In this document: piece by piece, positions 15,144-30,112 of the stretch | How the letters are laid out: each line of letters begins with the position of its first letter | Numbering within the stretch: position 1 is the first letter of the stretch | DNA from: a virus | Reading direction: 5' to 3' (one strand) | Virus record (IMG/VR): IMGVR_UViG_3300044491_001600 | Coordinates: 1-30,451 of that record | DNA length: 30,451 bases | Program-made: the position numbers and the translations under genes | Notes under the pieces: generated by a model | What the model was told of the DNA's origin: nothing | Databases searched by the model: none | Seen by the model: only the letters and a program-made list of their open reading frames with translations

Positions 15144-15813
15144 AATACAACAGGCTCTAGATGATCTTTGGATCAGATATGGTAAAACATTATCATATCT
15201 GAATGATGCCTTGGATCAATTAGATAAAAAACCTAAAGAAGTAATTGTTGAAAAGGAGATACAAATTGAGGTCGAAAAAATTGTCGAGGTTGAACGCAAG
15301 GTCGAGGTCCCAAAGGAGGTTGTGGTCACTCGCGAAGTCGAAGTCCCCGGACCAGAGCGAATTGTTGAGGTCCCCGGACCAGAGCGGGTCGTGGAAAGAA
15401 TCGTGGAAGTCGAAGTCCCCGGACCAGAGCGAATAGTTGAAAAGATTGTTGAAGTTGAAGTTAAGTCTAGAGACAACGTTAGAGAAGTTGTTATGCCTTT
15501 ATCAAATCATCAAGAACAACTATATAGAGATCAGATCGCAAAATTAAAAGCACACAACCAAGAACTAATAAATAAATTACAGACAAAACCAGAAGTTGTA
15601 GAAAAAGATTCTTCAAAGGATTTAAGACGTTCGGCACAATTGATTTCTGCCAGTGAACTTAACAAAGAAGGATTAAGTGCAAAAGAAATATTCGAACTTT
15701 TACAGAAATACAGCGAAGAAGAATTAAATAAACAGTTGGGCTTTTGGGCAGTACCATTACCAACTAAGGACAATGATAATGATAACACTGAACCGAGGTA
15801 TTTCAAAAAATAA
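15124..15813 (+). CDS. Coiled-coil protein with VPGPER repeats
   Basis: A 229-residue protein. After a helical start, residues 38-115 are a run of Glu/Val-rich repeats of the type EKIVEVE and three copies of EVPGPER-V/I-V-E, which would give rigid extended or beta-helical rods broken by Pro-Gly-Pro. The rest is helical, with a Lys/Leu-rich coil and the end KDNDNDNTEPRYFKK. The three DNA copies of GTCCCCGGACCAGAGCG (15343, 15370, 15415) are identical and much GC-richer than the surroundings. Its start overlaps the membrane protein by 20 bases and its stop overlaps clpX by one, so the three genes form a translationally coupled block. It likely works with its membrane neighbour; the protein family is not recognised. 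Confidence 0.65.
   Translation: MTQKENKIQQALDDLWIRYGKTLSYLNDALDQLDKKPKEVIVEKEIQIEVEKIVEVERKVEVPKEVVVTREVEVPGPERIVEVPGPERVVERIVEVEVPGPERIVEKIVEVEVKSRDNVREVVMPLSNHQEQLYRDQIAKLKAHNQELINKLQTKPEVVEKDSSKDLRRSAQLISASELNKEGLSAKEIFELLQKYSEEELNKQLGFWAVPLPTKDNDNDNTEPRYFKK
15343..15431 (+). repeat. Three exact 17-base direct repeats inside the VPGPER gene
   Basis: The 17-mer GTCCCCGGACCAGAGCG starts at 15343, 15370 and 15415 and encodes V-P-G-P-E-R in frame each time. Copies are 27 and 45 bases apart (multiples of three), so slippage or recombination would keep the frame. Confidence 0.9.
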
Positions 15814-17063
15814 TGTCTGACAAAAAAGATACTAATCTTGAATGTAGTTTTTGTGGTAAAAAGCGAAACGAAGTAAAAAAACTTATAGCAGGACCAACTA
15901 GTTACATTTGTAACGAGTGTATAAACATTAGCCATAAGATTATCAATGATGTAGAAGTTGAAGAACTCAACTTAGAACATATTCCAGAACCTCAAGAAAT
16001 AAAAGATTTTTTAGATGATTATGTAATTGGCCAAGACTATGCAAAAGAAGTTTTGAGTGTAAGTGCCTACAATCATTATAAAAGAATATTATTTGATACA
16101 AAGAATGAAATAGAAAAAAGTAATTGTGTTGTAGTAGGTCCTACTGGTTCAGGTAAAACATTATTAGCACAAACACTTGCTAAAAAACTAAAGGTACCAT
16201 TTGCTATAGCAGATGCAACAACACTTACTGAAGCAGGTTATGTAGGTGAAGATGTTGAAAGTGTTATAGAAAGATTACTTAACACTTGCGACTGGAATAT
16301 AGAATTAGCAGAAAGAGGTATTGTTTTTATTGATGAAATTGATAAAAAAACTAGAAGTAGTGAATCAAATACCAGCACAAAAGATATTAGCGGAGAGGGT
16401 GTACAACAAGCATTACTAAGACTTATTGAAGGCACCACAATAAAAGTTTCAACTAATGGCTCCAAACGTATGGATGAATTTATAGAATTTAATACGCAGA
16501 ATGTATTATTTGTAGTAAGTGGTTCATTTGTTGGTTTAGAACAAGTAGTTAAAAAGAGACTGAACAAAACGTCAATTGGATTTAATAAAGCAGTTGGCGA
16601 AAAATTTCAATCAGATTCATGGTTAGAATATGTAGAACATAGAGACTTAATTGAATTTGGTTTGATTCCAGAATTTGTAGGTAGACTACCAAACTTAATA
16701 CATCTCAGAGGTTTGACTGAAGAACAAATGGTAGAAGTATTACAGAACGCAAAAGGAAGTGTACTTAAACAAATGCAAAAATTATTAGAATTTGATGATA
16801 TACAGATTGACTTTTCTAAACAATATTTAAAAGATGTGGCTAACTTAGCCATTGACAGAAAAGTAGGTGCTAGAGGGTTGAAAAGTATTATAGAATCAAG
16901 TTTACATAACATTATGTTTAGGGCACCAACCCTTAAACTAAATGGTGTAGATAAGATTAGTTTTAATAAATATCCAAAAGATCTTGACTCTTATCCAGTT
17001 TTATCGTATAATACTGGTATTAGTGAAGTAGACACAAACTATAAACTTAAAAAAATGAGGTAG
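15813..17063 (+). CDS. clpX: ClpX, ATP-dependent unfoldase
   Basis: A full-length 416-residue ClpX. Zinc domain Cys11, 14, 33, 36; Walker A GPTGSGKT (109-116); pore loop GYVG (142-145); Walker B and DE (I170-E175); ISGEGVQQALLRLIEGT; IGF (255-257), the loop that docks to ClpP; GARGLKSIIE (sensor 2). In E. coli the segment after LIEGT carries Arg-Lys-His, the loop that helps recognise ssrA tags; here it reads N-G-S-K-R-M-D-E-F, so that loop differs. ClpX unfolds tagged proteins and feeds them to ClpP; no clpP is in the window, so it would use host ClpP. It is fused in expression to the membrane/coiled-coil block upstream (TAATG overlap) and to bS21 downstream. Confidence 0.95.
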   Translation: MSDKKDTNLECSFCGKKRNEVKKLIAGPTSYICNECINISHKIINDVEVEELNLEHIPEPQEIKDFLDDYVIGQDYAKEVLSVSAYNHYKRILFDTKNEIEKSNCVVVGPTGSGKTLLAQTLAKKLKVPFAIADATTLTEAGYVGEDVESVIERLLNTCDWNIELAERGIVFIDEIDKKTRSSESNTSTKDISGEGVQQALLRLIEGTTIKVSTNGSKRMDEFIEFNTQNVLFVVSGSFVGLEQVVKKRLNKTSIGFNKAVGEKFQSDSWLEYVEHRDLIEFGLIPEFVGRLPNLIHLRGLTEEQMVEVLQNAKGSVLKQMQKLLEFDDIQIDFSKQYLKDVANLAIDRKVGARGLKSIIESSLHNIMFRAPTLKLNGVDKISFNKYPKDLDSYPVLSYNTGISEVDTNYKLKKMR

Positions 17064-25823: not shown

Positions 25824-26225
25824 ATGGCAGATAATAAAGAAAACTTCTTAAGAAATAAAATTCACCAGAATACTGTAGATTCAGTATTGTTGATTTGTGC
25901 TCCGTGCAATGATGATGCAGACTATGAATGGATAACTGAAGCAGGTATCCACAATGCTCTTTTACCTTTTAGAAAGTGGTTTGAGAGTATGGATACTGAT
26001 TATCAGTTTGAAATAAACTATGGTAATCCTTGGGATGACTCTATCATGGATGGCATGACATTGTATGTGAATGTGATTGCAAAAGCAACACTTAGAACTA
26101 GACCATGGACCAAAGAAGATATGATGATGTTTAAATTAAAGTTTAGTGACAAGTTGCCTATACATGATTTAGGTCCTTACATAGAAGAAGCACTTAGATC
26201 TGAAGAAGGTATTGATTCAAAGTAG
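25824..26225 (+). CDS. Unknown protein, converging on the minus-strand gene
   Basis: A 133-residue acidic protein with two Cys (LLICAPC) near residue 25 and Trp/Met-rich segments (WTKEDMMMFKLKF). Its last 32 bases overlap the end of the convergent gene at 26194. No family recognised. Confidence 0.6.
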   Translation: MADNKENFLRNKIHQNTVDSVLLICAPCNDDADYEWITEAGIHNALLPFRKWFESMDTDYQFEINYGNPWDDSIMDGMTLYVNVIAKATLRTRPWTKEDMMMFKLKFSDKLPIHDLGPYIEEALRSEEGIDSK

Positions 26226-27138
26226 CAATATTTTTTTCCTGGAACTCTCCCCAAAAGTAATCATAATTATAATCTAGTATATCTTGTACTGAATCATACA
26301 TTTCTTGTATTTGCTGTTTGTTACATGTAGTTAGATGTAATAAGTTTTCAAACCAATCACGTTTTTCGTCCCATAAACAATCAAATGTTTTGAATCCCAT
26401 ATCCTGTAATGCTTTGTACTTTTCTGGATGTAAATGTAAGAAAGGTCTTTTTGCTATAATAGGCTTCCAAGTTTTTTCACTTAAAAATCTATCATTGAAA
26501 GTAGTTTCCCCTACAATATAACAGAATGTATTTGCTACTACATCTTTATTACCTAAACCAGCATCAGGCGGTGATTGGTTGTTCCATTTAAATAATTGAC
26601 CGCCTTCTTCCTCTTCTCTGGTGTTACCCTCAAAGGTCATATAACGTTCACCATCATCAACAGTTACAATACCGTAATCAGTTAGGTCATGGTTTATTAT
26701 ATTATCTATTGCATGTTTTCTGTGTAAAGGTGCTTTCTTATTGAAAAACAAAAAGTGATTAAAGTCATCTTTTAAGTTTAATGGAATGGAATTTAAGTTA
26801 TAGTGTTCTCTGTCTTGTCCATACAACCATGCCCAAAAATTCCAATCACATGTAACATCACTTACACATGGTAAATGGTTAAAGTCTAACTGATCCATGA
26901 ATTCATTATTTTCTAAGTAAGTACCAGGATCTAATTGTTGTACAAGTAATCTTCTATTTGGAATAGTATCATTATACAAAAATCTATTATCTGGATCTTT
27001 CCAGTATACCGGTTTTAGTCTAAATAAATAAGTTGCATCTATAATATTCCACCCTGATAATTGGTTTTGGATGTGTTCTAATATCTGTATATTTCTATTA
27101 CCAATAGGCCCAATATGGCTATGTTTATGGAAGATCAT
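26194..27138 (-). CDS. Unknown phage protein with FLSEKTWKPI motif
   Basis: A 314-residue protein from the ATG at 27138. A TTG at 27183 is rejected because it lies inside the promoter region of the plus-strand unit. The protein is rich in Trp, Phe, Tyr and His. Near the C-terminus the block FLSEKTWKPIIAKRPFLHL is followed by K-A-L-Q-D-M-G-F-K-T-F-D. This E-K-T-x-K-P-I...G-F-K-T-F pattern is frequent in marine phage proteins and could belong to a glycosyltransferase-like fold, but I cannot confirm it. It is the only minus-strand gene in the last 13 kb and converges on 25824-26225. Confidence 0.6.
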   Translation of the reverse strand: MIFHKHSHIGPIGNRNIQILEHIQNQLSGWNIIDATYLFRLKPVYWKDPDNRFLYNDTIPNRRLLVQQLDPGTYLENNEFMDQLDFNHLPCVSDVTCDWNFWAWLYGQDREHYNLNSIPLNLKDDFNHFLFFNKKAPLHRKHAIDNIINHDLTDYGIVTVDDGERYMTFEGNTREEEEGGQLFKWNNQSPPDAGLGNKDVVANTFCYIVGETTFNDRFLSEKTWKPIIAKRPFLHLHPEKYKALQDMGFKTFDCLWDEKRDWFENLLHLTTCNKQQIQEMYDSVQDILDYNYDYFWGEFQEKNIATLNQYLLQI

Positions 27139-27169
27139 GCAAATACTTATGGTTTTTTGCAAAAATAGG

Positions 27170-27197
27170 TTGATTTTTACCAAAAAAACACTATAAT
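27170..27197 (+). promoter_or_regulatory. Sigma70-like promoter upstream of the structured RNA and hsp20
   Basis: TTGATT (27170-27175) preceded by AAAAATAGG, 16 bases, TATAAT (27192-27197). Confidence 0.75.
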
Positions 27198-27209
27198 AAG
27201 TGTAAGTTA

Positions 27210-27217
27210 TATAAATA
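27210..27217 (+). promoter_or_regulatory. Perfect T4-late box TATAAATA
   Basis: TATAAATA, identical to the T4 late promoter, 12 bases downstream of the sigma70-like -10 box. Transcripts from it would start just before the first hairpin of the candidate RNA at 27221. Confidence 0.6.
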
Positions 27218-27220
27218 ACT

Positions 27221-27600
27221 TTGCAATTTAGAAATGCAAGGGCAATAGAATCGTAAGAAACTAAAGTCTACTGTAAATCAAAATTGCCCTCGATGTGCAA
27301 ACGAAGGGAGCAATCGAAGTAAGGGCAAAAGGATCGTAAGTGAAATTTGCCTACTACGGATGAATGTAACTGGATAGTAATAAGAGGTTAGGGAAGTTAA
27401 ATCTTCAAAAGAGCTCGGTATTAAGTTACTGTACAGCTCGGGTTTAACAGACCACGTGTAGAAATACAACTTGGCCCTACCAAGTACAGACTAATAGATG
27501 GCAACACCTATTAGTAGAAAGCGAAGTTAGGGAAGGATTTAGCAGGACAGGACACACACTAACGAATGCCCTGCTAAAGACGATTTGTTTATTCGCCAAT
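27221..27600 (+). ncRNA. Candidate large structured noncoding RNA
   Basis: No gene of any size is credible in this 475-base gap on either strand. Instead it is a chain of stems: AGGGCAAT/ATTGCCCT (27239-27246 and 27283-27290); CGAT.TGC/GCA.ATCG with a bulged G (27290-27317); GGCAAA/TTTGCC (27324-27329 and 27346-27351); GTTAAA/TTTAAC enclosing GAGCT/AGCTC and CGGTA/TACTG (27396-27448); TGTA-GAAA-TACA (27457-27468); ACTTGG/CCAAGT with loop CCCTA (27469-27485); ACTAATAG/CTATTAGT with a GCAA tetraloop (27490-27515); and TTTAGCAGG/CCTGCTAAA, nine pairs (27538-27578). GCGAA (27521) can pair with TTCGC (27592). The loop CCCTA could pair with TAGGG at 27389 or 27529 as a pseudoknot. The complementarity is seen; RNA function is inferred. 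It could also be a long hsp20 leader. Confidence 0.7.
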
Positions 27601-27658
27601 TGGGTTTAAACATCTTAGGAAAATAGAATATAAACTTGCTTAATTAAAGGAGATTATC

Positions 27659-28102
27659 ATGGTAGCAAAACAACAATTCCGTGTCACGACCGACACACTT
27701 TCCCCACTTTATAAAGCCTCAATTGGCTTCGACCAACTTGTAAATGAATTCTTTAATGAACCTTCATTTGTAAATACATCTGGTTATCCCCCTTATAACA
27801 TCTCAAAAGATGCAGAAGATGTCTATGAAATTACTCTTGCTATTGCAGGATTTAAGAAAGCAGACATCGATATTGAACTTGAAGATGGCACACTAAAAAT
27901 TACTGGTAAGTCAGAAGTACTTGACAGTGACAATAGAGAATGGTTACATAAGGGTATTGCTGAAAGAAACTTCGTAAGAACTTTCAAATTAGCAGAGTAT
28001 GTAGAAGTTAAAAATGCTAAACTTGAAGACGGTATTTTGAGAATCTCATTGTTCAAGAATGTTCCTGATGCAATGAAACCACAAAAGATTTCAATCAAGT
28101 AG
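27659..28102 (+). CDS. Small heat-shock protein Hsp20
   Basis: A 147-residue alpha-crystallin-type chaperone that binds unfolding proteins without ATP. The N-terminal arm (about 1-45) has GFDQLVNEFF, as in IbpA. The crystallin domain follows: PPYNISKDAEDVYEITLAIAGF, DIDIELEDGTLKITGK, F-V-R-T-F-K-L, and DGILRISL, ending in KISIK, with an I-x-I tail. A strong SD (AAAGGAG) precedes the ATG. Small heat-shock proteins are known in T4-like marine phages. It lies directly downstream of the structured RNA and is closed by a terminator. Confidence 0.95.
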   Translation: MVAKQQFRVTTDTLSPLYKASIGFDQLVNEFFNEPSFVNTSGYPPYNISKDAEDVYEITLAIAGFKKADIDIELEDGTLKITGKSEVLDSDNREWLHKGIAERNFVRTFKLAEYVEVKNAKLEDGILRISLFKNVPDAMKPQKISIK

Positions 28103-28370: not shown

Positions 28371-28670
28371 ATGTCAAAACAACAAACAAAGACTAAGGTT
28401 AGAACAGAGTTACGATATCCTTCTAACTATAATGTAATCATATTTAACGATGATTTTACACCTATGGATTTTGTAATTAGAATCCTAGTAGAAATTTTTA
28501 ATAAAAATCTTAATACAGCAAAAGATCAAACAATGCTTGTTCACAACAAAGGAAGTGCTATTGCTGGTACATACAATCATGAGATTGCAGATCAAAAATG
28601 TACTGAAGCCATTGCTATAAGTAGAGCATCAGGACACCCTTTGCAACTTAAAGTTGAACGAGTAGAATGA
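28371..28670 (+). CDS. clpS: ClpS, N-degron adaptor
   Basis: A 99-residue ClpS. The binding-pocket residues known from E. coli are all in place at a constant offset: Asn26, Asp27 (E. coli 34, 35), Thr30, Met32 (40) and His58 (66), in [13 protein letters not shown] and [10 protein letters not shown]. The C-terminal Y-N-H-E-I-A-D-x-K-C-T-E-A...S-G-H-P-L-Q-L is typical. ClpS delivers proteins with bulky hydrophobic N-terminal residues to ClpA and switches off ssrA delivery. No clpA is seen in the window. The ATGA overlap couples it to sufB. The N-terminal extension is short, which matters because that arm acts on ClpA. Confidence 0.93.
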
Positions 28671-30112
28671 CAGTAGAAAATTTAAATCAAACCAAATACA
28701 AAGAAGGCTTTAGTACCGAAACTGATTCGGTGAGTTTGCCTCCAGGTCTCGATGAGTCCACTATAAGAAACATTAGTGCAATCAAAGAAGAGCCCGAATG
28801 GCTATTGGAATTCAGATTAAAAGCATTTAAACGTTGGCAAGAAATGACTGAGCCTGATTGGAGTGAATTAGATTATGATCCAATTGACTATCAGGCACTC
28901 AGTTATTATTCAGCACCTAAAAGCAGAAACAAAGATGATATCCCACAAGAGATATTAGATACGTTTGATAAACTAGGTGTGCCATTACATGAACGTGATG
29001 CACTATTGGGCATAGATAAAGACTCTAGTGTTATTCCTACAGTGGCCATTGACGCAGTATTTGATAGTGTCAGTGTTGCCACAACATTTAAAGCAGAACT
29101 AGAAAAGTATGGTATTGTATTTGGTAGCATCAGTGAAGCAATACAATCACACCCAGACTTAGTTAGAAAGTATTTAGGTAGTGTAATACCTTATACAGAC
29201 AATTACTTTGCTACATTAAATTCTGCTGTATTCACAGACGGTACATTTTGTTATATACCACCAGGTGTAAGATGCCCTATGGAACTTAACACATATTTCC
29301 GTATAAACGCTCGTAATACAGGGCAGTTTGAACGCACACTGATTATAGCAGACGCGGACAGTTACGTTAGTTACTTAGAAGGGTGTACAGCACCAGCATA
29401 CGATGAAAACACGTTACATGCGGCGTGTGTAGAGCTAGTGACTATGGATAATGCTGAGATAAAATATTCAACAGTACAGAATTGGTATCCAGGAGACGAG
29501 AATGGTGTAGGTGGTGTATATAATTTTGTAACAAAACGTGCAAAGTGTGAAGGCAAGAATTCAAAAGTAAGTTGGACACAGGTTGAAACTGGTTCAGCAG
29601 TAACTTGGAAATACCCAAGTTGTATATTAAAAGGTGAAGGAAGTGTAGGAGAGTTTTTTAGTGTTGCTGTTACTAAAGGAAAACAACAAGCAGACACAGG
29701 AACTAAAATGATTCACTTAGGTAAGAACACCAAGAGTACCATTATATCCAAAGGTATTAGTTTTGGCGATAGTACAAATACATATAGAGGTTCTGTAAAA
29801 GTAAACCCAGGTGCTCACAATGCCAGGAACTATACCAAGTGTGACAGTTTAATGCTACAAGATAGTAGAGCCCTCACATTACCTTATGTCACATGTCAAA
29901 ACGAATCTGCTATTTTAGAGCATGAAGCAAGTGCTGGTAAAATTAGTGAAGAGCAAATGTATTATTTGCAAAGTAGAGGATTAAGTGAAGATGATGCAAT
30001 GAACTTAATTGTAAATGGTTTTTGTAAGGATGTTTTTCAAAAACTTCCTTTAGAGTTTGCCGCTGAGGCAAATGGTTTATTAGGTGTTACATTAGAAGGA
30101 GCAGTAGGATGA
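28667..30112 (+). CDS. sufB: SufB, Fe-S cluster assembly scaffold
   Basis: A full-length 481-residue SufB (E. coli 495). It is the scaffold of the SufBC2D complex, on which Fe-S clusters are built. Visible are [17 protein letters not shown], the beta-helix core with GCTAPAY, ELVTM and [10 protein letters not shown], then the conserved CDSLM (Cys392, equivalent to Cys405) and LEHEAS with His419-Glu420 (equivalent to 433-434), and the end [17 protein letters not shown]. All residues known to matter for cluster assembly appear present. The gene overlaps clpS by ATGA and is followed by a 52-residue gene that overlaps its stop, then by sufC. Confidence 0.96.

Follow-up and report, generated by a model that had tools for sequence, protein, structure and literature searches.

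The gene-free stretch upstream of hsp20 in the virus record IMGVR_UViG_3300044491_001600 is a 5' leader of about 440 nt, belongs to the mRNA of a marine phage hsp20 gene and is a folded RNA. The whole record of 30,451 bases is referred to here as the window. The leader begins with the promoter and late box (27170-27217) and ends at the start of hsp20 (27659), and its structure, its conservation and its linkage to hsp20 were established computationally. It is considered likely that this leader acts in cis, by a ROSE-like translational repression of hsp20 to which a single clade has added an ornate extension.

Locus and extent of the leader

The stretch lies between a minus-strand gene and hsp20, and the features of the locus are collected in Table 1. 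The sigma70-like promoter and the perfect late box that the earlier note had reported were both present. Most long-leader homologues had the same -35/-10 pair about 40 nt ahead of the late box, promoter and late box being kept together at similar spacing in most of them, and ATAAAT marked the 5' edge in every long leader that was complete at that end. The claim that the stretch holds no gene was confirmed as well: the longest plus-strand ATG frame inside the window leader has 10 codons, and the homologues keep the stems, not a frame. As to the range first proposed, 27221-27600, the feature is real and its end had to be moved, since a border at 27600 splits hairpin I and omits the Shine-Dalgarno hairpin. 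Downstream of hsp20 the window encodes a ClpS adaptor (28371-28670) and a SufB/D-like FeS-assembly protein (28667-30112), and elsewhere a ClpX-type AAA protein with a zinc finger (15813-17063). The order hsp20 then clpS was also observed in Pseudomonas phage Callisto.

Table 1. Positions in the window of the leader elements and the adjoining genes
Feature	Position	Strand	Composition	Basis or remark
Minus-strand gene, function unassigned	26194-27183	-		Upstream neighbour of the gene-free stretch
Sigma70-like promoter	27170-27197	+	TTGATT (27170-27175), 16 nt spacer, TATAAT (27192-27197)	Sequence
T4-type late box	27210-27217	+	TATAAATA	Sequence; 5' edge of the leader
Module A hairpin	27235-27275	+	UGCA/UGUA, GGGC/GUCU, UAG/CUA; GUAA loop 27253-27256	Alignment A3
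Module A', second A-type hairpin	27319-27357	+	GUA/UAC, GGGC/GCCU; GUAA loop	Row 17 of A3, aligned with module A
Module C	27396-27448	+	GUUAAAUC/GGUUUAAC and GAGCU/AGCUC; UUCAAAA internal loop	Alignment A4; optional in relatives
Hairpin with GAAA tetraloop	27456-27468	+	Tetraloop 27461-27464	Sequence; GUUUA-GAAA-UAAAC at the same place in L043
Module D	27475-27532	+	Closing helix CCCUA (27475-27479)/UAGGG (27528-27532)	Alignment A2
Module D inner hairpin	27491-27497, 27508-27514	+	CUAAUAG/CUAUUAG; GCAA loop 27501-27504	
Module E	27538-27578	+	Nine-pair stem UUUAGCAGG/CCUGCUAAA (27538-27546 with 27570-27578); conserved 23-nt loop with ACACACUAAC	Alignment A2
Hairpin I	27586-27612	+	UGUUUAUUC, bulged G 27595, CC, AAUU loop, GG, GUUUAAACA	Covaries in A2 (helix 5)
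Hairpin II	27635-27652	+	CUUGCU (27635-27640) with Shine-Dalgarno AGGAG (27648-27652); cap U27641-A27647	Core invariant, cap covaries
hsp20, 147 aa	27659-28102	+		mRNA bears the leader; PHROG 432 E 5e-38, Pfam HSP20 E 1e-18

Homologues were sought in IMG/VR by means of the Hsp20 protein, an alignment of Hsp20 and four DNA motifs taken from the leader. These searches yielded about 24 distinct long leaders, from related marine phage sequences, with lengths of about 260-560 nt measured from the late box. All verified copies stood directly upstream of hsp20 and behind a late box. This linkage, together with the conserved hairpin that sequesters the Shine-Dalgarno sequence at the 3' end, upheld the earlier proposal of a 5' regulatory leader of hsp20. 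The leaders of L005-L007 and L045-L049, whose Hsp20 proteins are about 49-75% identical, were found without modules A-E and with the last ~75 nt kept. Neither a blastn search of annotated phages nor an exact search of GTDB genomes with the module E motif gave a match. A weak second match of the model within the window (26541-26654, minus strand, E 0.07) was taken as chance.

Covariation and the upstream modules

That the stretch is structured above chance, as had been suggested, was borne out by the comparative evidence, the z-score of the single-sequence fold being modest (-2.03; 5 of 100 shuffles). The 3' domain of 22 leaders was aligned with MAFFT on sequence alone (alignment A2), and one structure of 38 pairs was tested. 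Standard pairs were formed by 87.8% of the cells, as compared with 74.2% after shuffling and at most 53.1% with the partners slid, the slid controls somewhat favouring the structure because it was drawn after viewing the same sequences. Double-changed cells numbered 127, against 40.7 in the shuffled alignments, and compensatory changes on both sides were detected in 26 of the 38 proposed pairs. Since the structure had been proposed after inspection of the sequences, a phylogeny-aware, R-scape-style null was added, in which the inferred substitutions are replayed along the tree. Under this null, significant pairs were obtained: nine of the 38 modelled pairs at E < 0.05 and, when all 16,290 column pairs were considered, only three, two of them in the closing helix of module D and one capping the Shine-Dalgarno hairpin. 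The latter pair lay outside the 38-pair model when it was found significant.

The comparative evidence is decisive for a folded RNA, for which the z-score by itself is insufficient. A chance fold of AT-rich intergenic DNA, which a z-score of this size might allow, was refuted by covariation far above shuffles, slides and the tree-based null, and it retains a negligible probability. For hairpin I an H-type pseudoknot (GCGAA with UUCGC) was also considered and dropped by eye; it pairs poorly in L002 and L039 and has no compensatory change, while the nested hairpin covaries. Another candidate pseudoknot, noted by eye, would join the loop of module E to the D/E junction (AGUGU with ACACU).

Both GNRA-type loops and the nine-pair stem described in the earlier note were present (Table 1). 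Its loop-to-TAGGG pseudoknot proved to be a nested helix, the one that closes module D, with double changes in all five pairs (A2); in module E they were seen in all six modelled pairs (A2). Module A was supported by 17 sequences (A3), with 90.5% of the cells paired and 14 double-changed cells versus 3.9 after shuffling, and module C by 10 sequences (A4), with 92.4% paired and 12 double-changed cells versus 4.7. Module A' occupies the position that is held by module B in most relatives, where the outer stem of B paired better with its own flanks than with swapped ones (32 of 10,000 permutations). The motif of module C was present in 11 IMG/VR contigs. Several copies of it (L032:2689-2793, L102:13632-13751 and others) displayed near-symmetric doubled UUCAAAA/G internal loops flanking a GUGCUC/GAGCAC stem, the second loop copy being replaced in the window and in L043. 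The UUCAAAA of this module presumably agrees with the T-loop consensus.

The loop motif of module E was specific to hsp20 leaders in IMG/VR, one chance match aside. Two types of this loop exist, each with its own conserved sequence, and they appear swapped, as if by recombination, between phages with near-identical Hsp20 (window 27547-27569; L119, L123, L132, L133 versus L102, L105). The motif RAUCGUAAGWGAAA was seen on two hairpins of the extension. Close relatives differ by gain, loss and exchange of modules A, B or A', C, D and E, as in L025 and L030, which have common flanks and of which only L025 carries module C; these modules were found in a small set of phages only. The proposed Rfam search matched no known family to the ornate part, and no family was obtained for the upstream modules at either gathering or permissive thresholds. 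This upstream part is a new clade-specific set of ornate domains.

The earlier note had spoken of a new ornate phage RNA, which stands for the upstream domains as structure and not for a separate RNA. If modules A-E were a trans-acting or structural RNA in the manner of GOLLD and ROOL, cut or terminated before hsp20, their GNRA loops, the conservation of their loop sequences and the size and covariation of their structure would be accounted for, as would a gain and loss of modules that is independent of hsp20. Such an origin is unlikely: the promoters read directly into hsp20, and in the searched collections the modules were not found away from the gene, chance motif matches aside. As the linkage to hsp20 is constant, a cis role is favoured, and the extension most likely acts on the folding, the stability or the protein binding of the hsp20 message. 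It provides well-delimited, covarying new RNA domains with natural deletion forms (L005-L007), and because of these forms its role is directly testable.

A relic of a self-splicing intron or another mobile ribozyme, also raised in the earlier note, would fit the insertion of modules into a leader of which relatives (L005-L007, L045-L049) have a short form. No group I or group II match rose above noise, group I reaching 7.2 bits where the cut-off is 50; no ORF remnant is present, structural selection still acts on the domains, the 3' domain included, and the leader continues directly into the hsp20 start. This origin is highly improbable. Intron relic, tmRNA and chance folding were rejected or strongly disfavoured.

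The two-hairpin element and probable control of hsp20

The most interpretable part of the leader, a ROSE-like element, was absent from the earlier account. Hairpin I follows one plan in about 40 distinct phage leaders: the stem varies, the bulged G is conserved, and CC/GG and a short loop complete the hairpin. The CUUGCU/AGGAG core of hairpin II was found in 22 of 22 long leaders. Covariation was read from the capping pair, because an invariant core cannot covary: this pair was U-A in 13 of the 22 long leaders, A-U in nine and unpaired in none. In a wider set of 68 leaders, which takes in E. coli ibpB and at least one stray, it was paired in 64 against 45.8 expected (0 of 20,000 shuffles). The spacing from CUUGCU, or CUCGCU in most of the sampled cyanophages, to AGGAG was usually 4-8 nt.

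A search of 17 phage records (2.6 Mb) with CUYGCU-N4-8-AGGAG gave 24 matches, of which 17 were at hsp20, one per record, one was at groES and six were elsewhere. Among the sampled reference phages the element preceded hsp20 in 11 of 13, including 10 of 10 Kyanoviridae. The element is shortened to CTTGCGTAAAGGAG in Pseudomonas phage Callisto and was absent from the hsp20 leader of Vibrio phage PWH3a-P1. Hairpin I and CUUGCU/AGGAG were also detected before groES in three phage contigs (L050:830-902, L064:956-1028, L073:929-1001), and it may be that the two-hairpin element is a general mark of phage chaperone genes. A CUUGCU...AGGAG leader was observed ahead of a short frame too (L058:2715-2787; L017 near 3797, minus strand). 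Pfam gave no match for the L058 frame; at a guess, the frame behind these leaders could be phasin-like.

The leader would be transcribed both from the host-type promoter and from the late phage promoter. The first hairpin and the weak hairpin II that follows it, which make up the last 75 nt, would exert a ROSE-like translational control, in which the pairing of CUUGCU with AGGAG may limit the entry of ribosomes until hairpin II opens. Warming would be the most likely trigger of this opening. A thermodynamic proof of a thermometer was sought and not obtained: the predicted stability of hairpin II was marginal (-2.6 kcal/mol at 5 °C and 0 at 37 °C), and the Shine-Dalgarno accessibility at hsp20 was not below that of other genes in the window, in an energy model that gives no credit to the non-canonical pairs used by ROSE hairpins.

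Such accessibility would also be expected if the leader, instead of repressing, gave highly expressed genes strong translation initiation; the presence of the same two hairpins before groES and the short unassigned frame, all of them possibly highly expressed, would fit this too. This function is quite improbable, as the motif occurs about once per phage genome, at hsp20, and not at capsid or other late genes, and the pair that closes off the Shine-Dalgarno sequence covaries.

A second layer of control may be added by binding of Hsp20 to its own leader. In E. coli, translation of IbpA is repressed by IbpA itself, which binds its ROSE leader through R93 and for this also needs R97, K98 and the aromatic Y34 (PMC10474464). 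It is possible, with some doubt, that phage Hsp20 likewise binds and represses its leader, that unfolded phage or host protein releases it and that the ornate domains are part of the binding platform; this would be compatible with a ROSE-like repression. The window Hsp20 retains the equivalents of R93, R97 and Y34. However, it has T at the K98 equivalent, where charge is needed in E. coli (PMC10474464), and the same residues occur in phages that lack the ornate modules, which leaves modules A-E unexplained.

If the element before hsp20 and groES is indeed ROSE-like, phages would run their chaperone supply by RNA thermometers, and phage production would be tied to water temperature. Relatives of Hsp20 were found in 508 reference phage records, mostly of cyanophages. 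We suggest only tentatively that the extension represents a novel type of phage sensor RNA, for a protein or a metabolite, set on a ROSE-like thermometer and combining temperature with an infection-specific signal, and that the two-hairpin element is a standard, undescribed part of the chaperone genes of tailed phages. In the literature searched there was no relevant paper on RNA thermometers in cyanophages or phage-encoded heat-shock genes, and none on translational control of phage hsp20.

Comparison with known RNA families

The view that the stretch is neither tmRNA nor tRNA was sustained, with no Rfam match at gathering in the window, the models of GOLLD, ROOL, HEARO, tmRNA, RNase P and group I intron included, and no tmRNA or tRNA found there by ARAGORN. 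A permissive Rfam search of 27100-27700, with E up to 5, returned one chance sRNA match. With GOLLD and ROOL (PMC12286853) the leader shares the character of a large, multi-domain structured RNA with GNRA loops in a phage setting, but it is fused to hsp20, shorter and modular, and has no match in Rfam 15.

ROSE-like thermometers are defined by a U(U/C)GCU motif in the 3' hairpin that pairs imperfectly with the Shine-Dalgarno sequence; a short form with two hairpins, that of Pseudomonas ibpA, is thermoresponsive by experiment (PMC3669281). In the phage leader, which forms the 5' UTR of a small heat-shock gene, U(U/C)GCU faces the Shine-Dalgarno sequence in the 3'-most hairpin, and at least one more hairpin precedes this one. 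The positive control, E. coli ibpA, was recovered as ROSE_2 (RF01832) at 100 bits. With this leader the phage leaders have in common a CUCGCU-N-AGGAG core before an IbpA-type gene; they differ from it in lacking a sequence match and in the hairpins upstream of the core. The E. coli ibpB leader (L124) also carries CUCGCU...AGGAG and has no Rfam match at gathering; part of the class appears to escape the present ROSE models.

ROSE_3 (RF02523) was the top Rfam match for the short leader L045 (E 0.16, 16.7 bits) and for cyanophage S-RIM44 (E 0.031, 18.9 bits), the alignment of the latter spanning both hairpins including the unpaired G. All scores were below the gathering cut-off of 43 bits, and the window copy was the weakest of those scored (10.2 bits), so the window element was not filed under RF02523. 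The phage element may nonetheless work like ROSE_3. As in ROSE_3 and Pseudomonas ibpA (PMC3669281), a small heat-shock gene is immediately preceded by two hairpins, hairpin I has an unpaired G beside CC/GG, and in hairpin II U(U/C)GCU faces the Shine-Dalgarno sequence; the short phage leaders, of about 70-90 nt, are also similar in length. Unlike these forms, the phage elements are AU-rich, score below the cut-off, stand behind T4-type late boxes and also occur at groES, and the clade of the window has added 200-480 nt of other structure.
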